From assembly GCA_934675585.1 (NCBI GenBank), contig CAKUQY010000006.1, positions 28,801-92,800 of the forward strand: a DNA stretch of 64,000 nt, written 5' to 3'. The translations under genes and the position numbers were made by a program. Below are positions 1 through 64,000 of this stretch, in pieces. Below the pieces are notes generated by a model. That model was not told where the DNA came from. It did no database searches and saw only the letters and a list, made by a program, of their open reading frames with translations. Origin of the DNA: an uncultured Opitutales bacterium (lineage in GTDB: Bacteria > Verrucomicrobiota > Verrucomicrobiia > Opitutales > UBA953). How positions within the stretch are numbered: position 1 is the first letter of the stretch; every line of letters begins with the position of its first letter.

Positions 1-440
1 CCAAAATCAGACCACGAGTTAATTTGACCGTAGAGACGCACTGCATTATCTTTGCTAATTTTCAGCGTTCCTGCCTCCCAAGATTGCGTATTCGCATCTT
101 TCCAAGCAGTTGTCCCATCAACCGCAACCACAGCAGAACCTTGCATTGCATTGCTCGTCGTCAATGCTCGAGTCCCCAAAAGCGAATTCCATCTAATTGA
201 ATTTGTCGGGCCATTTAGCCTTGCATTAACAAAACCCGAAAATGTTGTATTTTCAATCACAACCCAGCCATCGTTAACAACCAGCGTTCCATTGCCGGAA
301 ACATTCACCGTGCGGTCGCCAATATCCTTCGTATAAATCGTGTTGCCGTTAGGATTCAGATAAACCACCGCTTGCGCTGGAATTGCAGTTCCCGCGAGAA
401 TTGTTGCTGCTGCTAAAAAAAGTGTTTTTGAAAATTTCAT
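1..440 (-). CDS. Secreted protein with signal peptide, partial (runs off the left edge)
   Basis: An open frame starts with ATG at 438-440 on the minus strand and stays open to the window edge. The start MKFSKTLFLAAATILAGTAI is followed by PAQA, a clear Sec signal peptide with an Ala-x-Ala cleavage site. The visible mature part is rich in short polar beta-like segments (for example VNVSGNGTLVVNDGWVVIEN), as in secreted autotransporter-like or PEP-CTERM proteins here. The C-terminus is outside the window, so a PEP-CTERM tail cannot be checked. Function unknown. Confidence 0.75.
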   Translation of the reverse strand, partial: MKFSKTLFLAAATILAGTAIPAQAVVYLNPNGNTIYTKDIGDRTVNVSGNGTLVVNDGWVVIENTTFSGFVNARLNGPTNSIRWNSLLGTRALTTSNAMQGSAVVAVDGTTAWKDANTQSWEAGTLKISKDNAVRLYGQINSWSDF

Positions 441-492
441 GAGATTGAAACGTATTAAAAATTAAAGAGGGATAAAAGGTAAAAATGAATTA

Positions 493-1716
493 TTATTTTT
501 CGGCTGATTTTGTTTTGGGTTGCTCGGGAATATCTGCTGCGAGGCCTGCAATTTCGAGCGAGAACGATTCGCCTTCAACGAGCGCATCGGCTTCGGCTGG
601 CGTTTTCATTACCGTTGCCGTCGCGGTCGTTCCCGCGACTGTCGAAATTTTTACGGGAACATCATTTTTGCCCGCACGTTTTACAAAATATGCTGCCGCG
701 GGAACCAATTCGCGCGCGCCTTCGGTCATCGACAAAATCACGCGATTGCCCGCCAAAGTCATTTCAACTTTTCCTGCGGGAACGACTGTTTTTGGAGCCG
801 GTGCAGGTTCAACCACTGCGGGAACGGCCGGCTTTTCACCCACATTTGCAGCCGCCGCGCGATTTGCTTCCAACGCGTTCCAATCAAGCAAAGCGCTGGG
901 CTTATCGGCGCCTTCCATAATTGCGGGAACGGCCTTAAAAGCGCCACGCCACACAGGCAAAAGTGTTTCGTTGAGCGGGAACGCGATTTCAACGCGACGC
1001 ACGCCTGGCTGCAAATTCAACAATTCGCATTCGTTTTTCAATTCCACCGCCGCGCCATCGACTTTGATAATCGCTGCGGGTTGTTTTGCCAGAACAAGTG
1101 CCACATCGCTCAACACGATTTTCCCGTCAGGAATGTTCGCGGGAATGCGTCCGCGCAAATCAAAACTCACGCGTGCCGTTTTGCCTTTTTCGAGTTTGAC
1201 GCGTTTGGTTTCAATGCCATAAACTGACGAGCGCGCCTCGATAGTCAATTCACTGCCAATGTCGTATTCGCCGGAAACGAGCGAGCCGCGCGACGCGTGT
1301 TTTCCATTCACAAAAATTTCAGTTTCTGTTGGCAAACAAGTTACCACCAACTCGCCTTTTTTCATCTTAAAAGTTGGCGCCAATTTTTTTGCAGAACCCG
1401 CTTTCAACACGACGTCTTCCAAAACCGCAGGTTCTGCCGCGTCGTCATTTTCAAAAACAAAACGATACGTTCCCGCGTAAAGCGTGTTGTCCAAAATCAA
1501 AAGTCCGTCCTCGGGAACGCTTCCCACGCGCATGCGTTGACCGTTAAATTCTTGAAAAATTGTCGTTCCCGGAAGCGTCTGAATCACGACAACTGCGGGA
1601 GCGCCTGAATTCTCTTGCGCGCGAGCATTGATCGGCGTTGCAAGAAAAATAAACGATAAAATCGCCATTAAAAATGACGCCTTATTAAGAAAAAATTTCT
1701 TCAAAAATGTAAGCAT
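493..1716 (-). CDS. PEGA-like secreted or periplasmic protein
   Basis: About 407 residues from the ATG at 1714-1716, chosen because it opens a signal peptide or anchor (MLTFLKKFFLNKASFLMAIL, then SFIFLATPINARA); an upstream in-frame start at 1779 would add 21 residues ahead of it. The mature part has repeated beta-rich segments of the PEGA kind (GELVVTCLPTETEIFVNGKH; 'SGEYDIGSELTIEARSS'), which in other proteins are small surface-exposed modules. The middle and C-terminal parts are rich in Ala-Pro-Val and carry several VPA and AGT tripeptides encoded by the iterated word. No enzyme motif is visible. Function unknown. Confidence 0.7.
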   Translation of the reverse strand: MLTFLKKFFLNKASFLMAILSFIFLATPINARAQENSGAPAVVVIQTLPGTTIFQEFNGQRMRVGSVPEDGLLILDNTLYAGTYRFVFENDDAAEPAVLEDVVLKAGSAKKLAPTFKMKKGELVVTCLPTETEIFVNGKHASRGSLVSGEYDIGSELTIEARSSVYGIETKRVKLEKGKTARVSFDLRGRIPANIPDGKIVLSDVALVLAKQPAAIIKVDGAAVELKNECELLNLQPGVRRVEIAFPLNETLLPVWRGAFKAVPAIMEGADKPSALLDWNALEANRAAAANVGEKPAVPAVVEPAPAPKTVVPAGKVEMTLAGNRVILSMTEGARELVPAAAYFVKRAGKNDVPVKISTVAGTTATATVMKTPAEADALVEGESFSLEIAGLAADIPEQPKTKSAEK

Positions 1717-2083
1717 AAACACGCAAATGGGGTTATCTATTCCTCTATTACACCCTTTTTTCGCGCCGTTGTCAAACATAACTGCGCTCGCGCGCGTTAT
1801 TTACCGAGTTTGGAAAAATTTTAAATTTAAGAGTTGAGAAATCCACAAAAAATCGGTGAAATCTGTCAAAATCTGTTTCATCTGTGTTCAAAAAAATGGG
1901 ACGCGCGAGACGCGCATCCCTCTATAAAGTCTTAGTTTCCTTTAATTTTCCCCTTAGTTTTCCTAATTGAAAAAAAACAGCGTTCCCGTGTTCCCGCGCG
2001 CCTCCTCAAAAAAAATAATTTGCGAAATTTTGCGACAAAATTTGCGAAATCGGCGTTAAAAAATCCCGTTCCTGCGCGATGTC
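1717..2083. other. Intergenic region without a recognised gene
   Basis: AT-rich spacer between the PEGA-like gene and the rubrerythrin terminator. It contains phrases resembling the dispersed repeats seen elsewhere (a run like 'aaatctgtttcatctgtgtt' near 1868-1887) and two copies of the 9-bp word. No convincing ORF or RNA is seen. Confidence 0.6.
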
Positions 2084-2122
2084 AAAAAAAACGCGTTCCC
2101 GCAAAATTTCACGGGAACGCGC
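2084..2122 (-). terminator. Intrinsic terminator after rubrerythrin, built from the iterated word
   Basis: Read on the minus strand, GCGTTCCCG (2112-2120) pairs with CGGGAACGC (2093-2101) across a 10-nt loop, followed by a run of eight T (2084-2091). It sits just downstream of the rubrerythrin stop. Confidence 0.85.
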
Positions 2123-2147
2123 TTTTCAAATTAAAAAACTGAACAAA

Positions 2148-2723
2148 TTACCAGTTTTCAGCCAAGAGCTCAAAATGCGCTTGTGGGTGTGCGCAAGCCG
2201 GACATTCGAGTGGCGCTTTTGCAGCTTCGCAAATAAAACCGCAATTGCGGCAACGCCACCAAACTTTGCCGTCTTTTTTGAAAACTTCGCCTTTTTCAAG
2301 ATTGGCGAGCAAGCCGAGATAACGCTTTTCGTGTTGTTTTTCTGCAATCGCGACATTGCGGAAAACTGATGCGATTTCTCTAAAACCTTCTTGCTCTGCG
2401 ATAACCGCAAATTTTGGATAATCACTTTCCCATTCGCAATGTTCACCTGCTGCTGCCGCGCGCAAATTTTCAGCGGTCGAGCCAATCACGCCCGCTGGGA
2501 ACGCCGCCACAACTTCAACATCGCCGCCTTCAAGAAATTTAAAAAAGCGCTTGGCGTGCTCTTTTTCTTGATCTGCCGTTTCCGCAAAAATGTCAGCGAT
2601 TTGGACAAATCCCTCTTTTTTTGCTTTCGCCGCAAAATAAGTGTAGCGATTGCGCGCTTGCGATTCTCCCGCGAACGCGTGCATTAAGTTTTTCTCTGTT
2701 TGAGTACCTTTTAATGATGTCAT
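2148..2723 (-). CDS. rbr: Rubrerythrin
   Basis: A 191-residue rubrerythrin, a cytoplasmic non-haem iron peroxidase that detoxifies hydrogen peroxide. The N-terminal four-helix ferritin-like domain shows the di-iron ligand pattern (FAGESQARNRY, ETADQEKEHAKRFF, AEQEGFREIAS, AIAEKQHEKRY). The C-terminal rubredoxin-like domain has two CxxC pairs (WRCRNCGF and LECPACAHPQ) that bind a single iron. Length is normal for the family. The gene is monocistronic, with a strong sigma70-like promoter overlapped by a PerR/Fur-like palindrome upstream and an intrinsic terminator downstream, so peroxide-responsive control is plausible. Confidence 0.97.
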   Translation of the reverse strand: MTSLKGTQTEKNLMHAFAGESQARNRYTYFAAKAKKEGFVQIADIFAETADQEKEHAKRFFKFLEGGDVEVVAAFPAGVIGSTAENLRAAAAGEHCEWESDYPKFAVIAEQEGFREIASVFRNVAIAEKQHEKRYLGLLANLEKGEVFKKDGKVWWRCRNCGFICEAAKAPLECPACAHPQAHFELLAENW

Positions 2724-2755
2724 AATTTTTTTTGGTTGATTGTTATCGGTTTAAT

Positions 2756-63746: not shown

Positions 63747-63777
63747 AAAAACGGCGTTCCCGCGGAGACTCTCTCTT

Positions 63778-63830
63778 GCGGGAACGCTTCCTTGCGGAGA
63801 AGACGTTCCCGCGTTCCCGCGCGGTTTTTT
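63778..63830 (+). terminator. Terminator of the protease block, from the iterated word
   Basis: GCGGGAACG (63778-63786) pairs with CGTTCCCGC (63804-63812); another CGTTCCCGC at 63812-63820 is followed by GCGG and six T (63825-63830). Confidence 0.75.
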
Positions 63831-63864
63831 AATGACGACAATTTGGCATTATTAAGAATTGTTA

Positions 63865-63893
63865 TTGACATCAATCTTTTCGATAGATAAAAT
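63865..63893 (+). promoter_or_regulatory. Sigma70-like promoter before the right-edge gene
   Basis: TTGACA (63865-63870), 17-bp spacer, TAAAAT (63888-63893), 36 bp upstream of the ATG at 63930. Confidence 0.8.
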
Positions 63894-63903
63894 TAGCGGC
63901 ATC

Positions 63904-63938
63904 TTAAAACCCCGAATTTTTTATTTTTTATGAGCGAA
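63904..63938 (+). repeat. 35-bp direct repeat, right flank of the protease block
   Basis: Second copy of the repeat at 58375-58409, again ending in ATGAGCGAA. Confidence 0.9.
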
Positions 63939-64000
63939 AACTTTACTTACAATTATCTTGCGGGAACGCGGCGGCGTAAAGGCTTGACTCCGCGCACCGC
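63930..64000 (+). CDS. Partial gene at the right edge
   Basis: Frame starting MSENFTYNYLAGTRRRKGLT and running off the edge. The start matches the leader frame at 58401. 'AGT' is from the iterated word. Too short for a family assignment. Confidence 0.55.
   Translation, partial: MSENFTYNYLAGTRRRKGLTPRT

Follow-up and report, generated by a model that had tools for sequence, protein, structure and literature searches.

According to passages of PMC12616744, specificity in DNA uptake is known in only two bacterial families, the Neisseriaceae, which carry DNA uptake sequences (DUS), and the Pasteurellaceae, which carry uptake signal sequences (USS). Cyanobacterial genomes are saturated by words of another kind, the highly iterated palindromes (HIPs) such as HIP1. 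Here we describe a 9-bp word, GCGGGAACG, which is scattered over the whole of a 64,000-nucleotide stretch of DNA (the window) from an uncultured Opitutales bacterium of the phylum Verrucomicrobiota (contig CAKUQY010000006.1, forward-strand positions 28,801 to 92,800) and is present in thousands of copies in the genomes of six relatives. From comparisons of sequence, we propose with moderate confidence that GCGGGAACG is the word by which this Opitutales lineage recognizes ‘self’ DNA for uptake, and that uptake biased toward it, together with recombination, maintains it. Among the matches listed from the open-access literature, no paper connects such a word with Verrucomicrobiota.

The word resembles the Neisseriaceae DUS in being short and non-palindromic, in its thousands of copies on both strands, in its putative terminator pairs and in its density, but it is a different word in a different phylum, where no basic ComP-like pilin was found. 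With the USS it shares a 9-bp core and terminator pairs, and the comNOPQ minor pilin operon of the Pasteurellaceae parallels a four-pilin cassette of the Opitutales lineage; the USS inner core GCGG (passages of PMC12616744) also begins GCGGGAACG, perhaps by chance. Unlike the USS, GCGGGAACG has neither a strong A/T-rich flank nor a bias toward gene ends. In Kingsford et al., passages of which describe pairs of DUS and USS used in transcription terminators, the arrangement of these pairs is biased (PMC1852404). HIP1 and the alternate HIPs likewise saturate genomes, are low in some relatives and reach a similar density (about 500–2,500 copies per Mb for high-frequency HIPs in passages of PMC4390886). 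They are, however, palindromes with matching methyltransferases, whereas GCGGGAACG is asymmetric and is tracked by no methyltransferase of the two families searched. Chi and the FtsK-orienting polar sequences (KOPS) are over-represented words of similar length, but these are strongly strand-polar and GCGGGAACG is nearly strand-balanced.

Abundance and setting of the word in the window

GCGGGAACG occurs 184 times in the window if overlaps are allowed (first at position 628, last at 63960) and, without overlaps, 83 times on the + strand and 100 times on the − strand, which places it first among all 9-mers. Base composition (45.5% G+C) leads one to expect about 0.6 copies, and an order-3 Markov model, which itself contains the word, 8.1; the best GC-matched 9-mer devoid of the 6-base cores of GCGGGAACG reaches 19 copies, so that other GC-rich 9-mers fall far short of it. 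A preliminary description of this DNA had spoken of saturation far above chance, in both orientations and in all reading frames, and was right in each respect, the six frames being used by 59, 35, 14, 13, 12 and 10 coding copies. Its figure of 6–8 GGGAACG cores per kb applies locally (up to 19 per 2 kb) but not on average (4.4 per kb). Shorter cores outnumber the full word (280–281 copies of GGGAACG and 252 of the 8-base core CGGGAACG), and the spacing of the word is uneven (mean 226, s.d. 286). At least one CGGGAACG is found in 43 of the 52 window genes, as called by a simple script of our own and not by an established gene caller. The longest stretches free of the 8-base core include the region of fabF (11.9–14.5 kb), where the longest of them, 2,619 bases (11916–14535) around fabF itself (12047–13288), carries no CGGGAACG, and that of the GTP-dependent phosphoenolpyruvate carboxykinase gene (PEPCK; 44.3–46.3 kb, with the gene at 44333–46147 on the − strand), which also lacks CGGGAACG and was the query that found the relatives described below.

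The consensus around the word consists of a pyrimidine-rich 5′ side, GCGGGAACG itself, and then mostly C, beyond which the flanks display weak T signals only (on average no more than 0.05 bits per position past +9). GCGGGAACGC is present in 100 copies, as against 0–5 copies for each of its one-change variants at positions 2–8, 0–9 for those changed at the word's final G and 1–14 for those changed at its first G. GCGGGAACG differs from its own reverse complement, and the flanks add no palindrome.

Codon usage does not explain the density of the word. The window genes contain 143 copies, the other 41 being intergenic or at gene edges, and this number falls to 12.1 ± 3.1 in 200 synonymous shuffles and to 0.78 when codon order is shuffled; counts near the expectation from codon usage, to which the preliminary description had tied the fate of its claim, were thus not observed in the window. 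The frames that encode AGT and VPA are favored. Cores are denser between genes than within them, both in the window (5.76 versus 3.63 per kb) and in a 358.9-kb contig of a relative, G022 (4.17 versus 2.94 per kb), and within genes the sense orientation is commoner (117 versus 81 in the window, 530 versus 363 in the G022 contig).

The word also forms close inverted pairs. Among cores lying 8–35 bases apart in the G022 contig (358,876 bases), 52 pairs have the arrangement CGTTCCCG..CGGGAACG, compared to 14 in the opposite inversion and 20 and 22 in the two same-direction arrangements. Of these 52 pairs, 37 have an A or T tail and 39 fall between genes, 34 of the 39 within the 100 bases that follow a stop codon. 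Close inverted pairs past stop codons are predicted to be terminator hairpins; by their position and A/T tails, they appear to represent the frequent inverted pairs at terminator-like sites that characterize DUS and USS. In the window, six of the 12 CGTTCCCG..CGGGAACG pairs are intergenic, and four of the six lie just past a stop. The pair at 2094–2119 follows the stop of a − strand gene at 2148 and is flanked by an A tract before it and T-rich sequence after it, and that at 44286–44310 lies just past the stop of PEPCK; both are predicted terminators, as is the pair at 42227–42251, between the convergent genes 40467–42203 (RNase E/G family, + strand) and 42302–43600 (− strand). Predicted hairpins are further formed by the intergenic pairs at 14535–14564 (between two − strand genes, with an A tract and a T tract), 43687–43711 (with a T tract) and 63755–63786 (immediately after the stop codon of gene 62898–63746, + strand). 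At 9372–10154 and 62874–63746, PEP-CTERM protein models gave weak matches that do not reach the curated cut-offs.

Spread and conservation of the word in the lineage

As the preliminary description had proposed, the word was counted in relatives, namely in 79 genomes from the same family and in 387 sampled from the phylum, the window's own genome not being among them; counts are sums over the forward and reverse strands, and the reversed word served as the control. The nearest named relatives by PEPCK are two Opitutales metagenome-assembled genomes from goat and water-deer rectum (L001 and L002, 90% protein identity), and the PEPCK of G026 is 92% identical to that of the window. Six of the eight lineage genomes examined are saturated, with 3,060–4,396 copies balanced between the strands and 44–60 copies of the reversed word (G001, 3514/60; G002, 3353/52; G021, 4396/44; G022, 3907/48; G023, 3060/46; G026, 3488/48). 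With genome sizes rounded to 0.1 Mb, this corresponds to 1.8–2.75 copies per kb or 1.6–2.5% of the genome, which matches the densest published DUS dialect (kingDUS, whose 5,918 copies in 2.4 Mb make it first in density in passages of PMC3630211) and does not exceed all known systems. The preliminary description had suggested an uptake, recombination or nucleoid role and had named uptake sequences and HIP1 as the closest parallels, with a different word and density. The likeness to DUS and USS holds; the density is not unlike that of known systems. In these six relatives the word shares with DUS and USS its short non-palindromic form, a copy number of at least 1,000 and equal representation on both strands.

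Elsewhere the word is scarce. The other two lineage genomes, G024 and G025, contain 743 and 336 copies (reversed word, 62 and 37), and the highest count in the remaining 71 family genomes is 172 (G014; reversed word, 141), with densities of no more than 0.07 per kb. The isolate Puniceicoccaceae bacterium Marseille-Q1082 (G004) has 71 words as against 129 reversed words. Throughout the phylum sample, saturation is confined to members of the window's lineage; after these, the highest count is 286 in 5.8 Mb (G374) and the greatest density 0.07 per kb (282 copies in the 4.0 Mb of G181). Some distant genomes of the phylum, such as G112, G181 and G374, carry the word several-fold more often than its reverse (226 versus 43 in G112), at no more than 0.07 per kb. 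The G+C content of sampled saturated sequence ranges from 45.5% (window) to 63% (G021), and composition therefore does not set the word. In the stretches of G001 and G021, CGGGAGCG is also in excess (61 versus 23 and 104 versus 35 expected) and is possibly a minor variant.

A tree of 11 proteins divides the lineage into one clade of G021, G001, G002, G022 and G023 and another of G024, G025, G026 and the window; the PEPCK and Tex trees each place G024 with the G001/G002/G021/G022/G023 group. Under either topology the low genomes fall among saturated ones. Recombinational exchange of the PEPCK and Tex genes of G024 would lead to such a conflict between trees.

The persistence of individual sites was examined in codon alignments of reciprocal-best orthologues, with GC-matched 9-mers as controls. 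As most pairs of genomes were compared in both directions, with sites in common, the counts are not independent. Between genomes on opposite sides of the lineage's deep split (54–65% amino-acid identity), the word is found at the same place in 8/26, 8/21, 16/37, 16/41, 4/5 and 4/16 cases (controls, 0.026–0.100), and within clades in 15/23, 15/21, 52/94, 52/81 and 36/52 (controls, 0.09–0.24). Where the peptide is unchanged, the word is kept in 40 of 44 comparisons across the split (20 distinct shared sites underlie the 40; control, 0.223) and in 151 of 163 within clades (control, 0.40). Some force therefore holds the word at silent positions in the saturated species. When words of saturated genomes are followed into low ones, over eight pairings, 25 of 221 are kept (controls, 0.07–0.18), and 22 of 53 where the peptide is unchanged (control, 0.30). 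In the reverse direction, the words of G024 are kept in G022 at 8/10 and in G026 at 0/2, those of G025 in G022 at 4/7, and with the peptide unchanged 19 of 21 low-genome words are kept (control, 0.28). None of the G022 sites is kept in outgroups (0/8 and 0/13). Nucleotide alignments give the same picture with less data.

In the two low genomes, copies with one mismatch are in excess (319 versus 138.5 expected, or 2.3-fold, in G024; 182 versus 88.3, or 2.1-fold, in G025). The corresponding ratios are 1.31, 1.30, 1.38 and 0.99 in outgroups and 1.8–3.0 in saturated genomes, and for the reversed word 1.41 in G024 and 1.12 in G025. The mismatches are scattered over the positions of the word and do not define a new dialect. 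The word thus appears eroded in G024 and G025, which is consistent with decay since the force that maintained it stopped acting, or with only weak action of that force.

A candidate uptake sequence and its putative machinery

Considering (i) the inverted pairs past stop codons, (ii) the conservation of sites, (iii) the scarcity of the word, with near-misses, in two relatives and (iv) its restriction to one lineage, we favor a role in DNA uptake. Cells would take up DNA bearing the word more readily, and recombination would keep and spread it. A sequence-reading protein on a type IV pilus or the cell surface would bind the word, and ComEC and DprA would carry the DNA onward. Biased uptake and recombination may outrun mutation except at highly constrained proteins, and G024 and G025 would have changed or lost the preference, leaving their copies to decay. 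Such a process would result in saturation of both strands, conservation at silent sites, scarcity in some constrained genes and decay once the preference is lost.

Of the competence genes that the preliminary description had proposed to look for, those for ComEC and type IV pili are present. In 15 genomes (the eight of the lineage and seven outgroups), ComEC and DprA domains, ATPases of the T2SSE family (named PilB or PilT by size and arrangement) and N-methyl pilins were found without exception, and a secretin in 14, none being detected in G021. A cassette of four pilins (GspG-, GspH-, GspI- and GspJ-like) is conserved in G001:C35, G026:C2, G024:C98 and G025:C75, with only weak matches to the GspG/H/I/J and Verru_Chthon cassette models. 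In a scan of 27 families, the GspH/FimU-fold pilin ranked first, a result that is not significant after correction; the GspH/FimU-fold minor pilin of this cassette is a candidate reader of the word, as a lead only.

Each of the six saturated genomes gives two strong PilB-class matches, compared to three in G024, G025 and six of the seven outgroups (G030 has two, one of them a fragment), and one or no detected secretin, compared to at least two in G024, G025 and all seven outgroups. N-methyl pilins number seven in every saturated genome, against 10 and 11 in the two low relatives and 7–10 in outgroups. A type II secretion system thus separates low and outgroup genomes, which have it, from saturated ones, which do not, but the independent events are few and the pattern may be due to chance. 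Speculatively, a loss of secreted nucleases together with type II secretion would let free DNA last longer.

Several observations weigh against an uptake role. ComEC, DprA and the pilus genes are also found in low relatives and outgroups and so do not track the word. Four ComEC proteins scanned fall below the NCBIfam cut-off for the full ComEC/Rec2 model, although they exceed that for the domain model. No stand-alone, short ComEA-type frame exceeds the cut-off in the 15 genomes, where a divergent ComEA could be missed; the HHH_3 matches above the cut-off, in 12 of the 15, are in frames of 773–1042 amino acids, which we take to be Tex, plus one of 1328 amino acids in G004. All 48 lineage type IV pilins examined are net negative in their soluble part, and none is a basic ComP-like pilin; an electropositive stripe is reported for ComP and FimT in passages of PMC12616744. 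The word shows no gene-end bias, its distribution over gene quintiles being flat, whereas Pasteurellaceae USS show such a bias. In the window, the 12 inverted pairs are not commoner than same-direction pairs (11 and 12), and the bias is clear only in the G022 contig. Some mobile DNA carries the word, as a phage contig (L498, IMGVR_UViG_3300019837_000032; 11,357 bases) has 13 copies.

This contig, which bears lambda-type portal and gpA terminase genes, is possibly a phage or prophage of the window's lineage. At about 278.9–286 kb of G022:C10 (L280, L281), the hsdS and hsdR genes of a type I restriction-modification locus are separated by a gene for a protein kinase; this gene and hsdS are low in G+C (0.38 and 0.41, respectively) and lack the 8-base core, which suggests recent arrival.

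Alternative roles and significance

The alternative that survives best, although we hold it to be unlikely, is that GCGGGAACG is the binding site of a chromosomal protein (in nucleoid organization, recombination or repair, Chi-like), for which sites, not uptake, are selected. Dense, genome-wide maintenance at the DNA level would be expected here too, and the low relatives would have lost the protein. The polarity of the word is weak, however (in the G022 contig, 220 + and 279 − copies at 0–260 kb and 94 and 84 beyond a GC-skew switch near 260 kb), its spacing is irregular, and inverted pairs past stops are not expected of such a site. Somewhat less likely still, the word could resemble HIP1 in being linked to an orphan DNA methyltransferase and perhaps to mismatch repair. 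Cyanobacterial HIPs are similarly dense and have matching methyltransferases (passages of PMC4390886), and methyltransferases of the PF01555 and PF02384 families occur in the lineage. Against this reading, the word is non-palindromic, unlike described HIPs, PF02384 is absent from the saturated G026, and both families are present in the low G024 and G025; no methyltransferase of PF01555 or PF02384 tracks saturation, C5-methyltransferases and other families not having been searched. Irregular spacing, near-absent polarity, pairs past stops and the lack of a palindrome together speak against roles of the Chi, KOPS or HIP type, although a chromosomal protein or methyltransferase of some other kind might also hold the word in place.

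A mutational or repair bias that introduces the word at any tolerated position is improbable. The higher core density between genes, the absence of the word from some conserved genes and its presence in the phage contig would agree with such a bias, but a 9-bp non-palindromic target is kept at unchanged peptides across the deep split and in genomes of very different G+C, and we know of no repair system that writes such a word. An artefact of codon usage, amino acids or composition, to which the favored AGT and VPA frames might point, is dismissed by the two shuffles, by the higher density between genes and by the relatives that lack the word.

Returning to an uptake role, we tentatively extend it, at a confidence somewhat short of probable, to an independently evolved uptake code of the Verrucomicrobiota: a 9-bp word that would predate the split of the lineage, would be held in place by biased uptake at a density like that of the densest DUS, would have been co-opted for terminators, would be read by a GspH/FimU-fold minor pilin and would be decaying where the preference was lost. 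As an uptake tag, GCGGGAACG would have no precedent beyond the two proteobacterial families in which such tags are known, and a third case, in another phylum, would mean that recognition of self DNA evolves repeatedly. Saturated species and their eroding sisters would let the debate over drive versus selection be tested, and DNA tagged with the word could help experimenters to transform Opitutales of the gut. Even with a different role, the conservation of a word at silent positions on both sides of a deep split places a strong, testable constraint on genome evolution.

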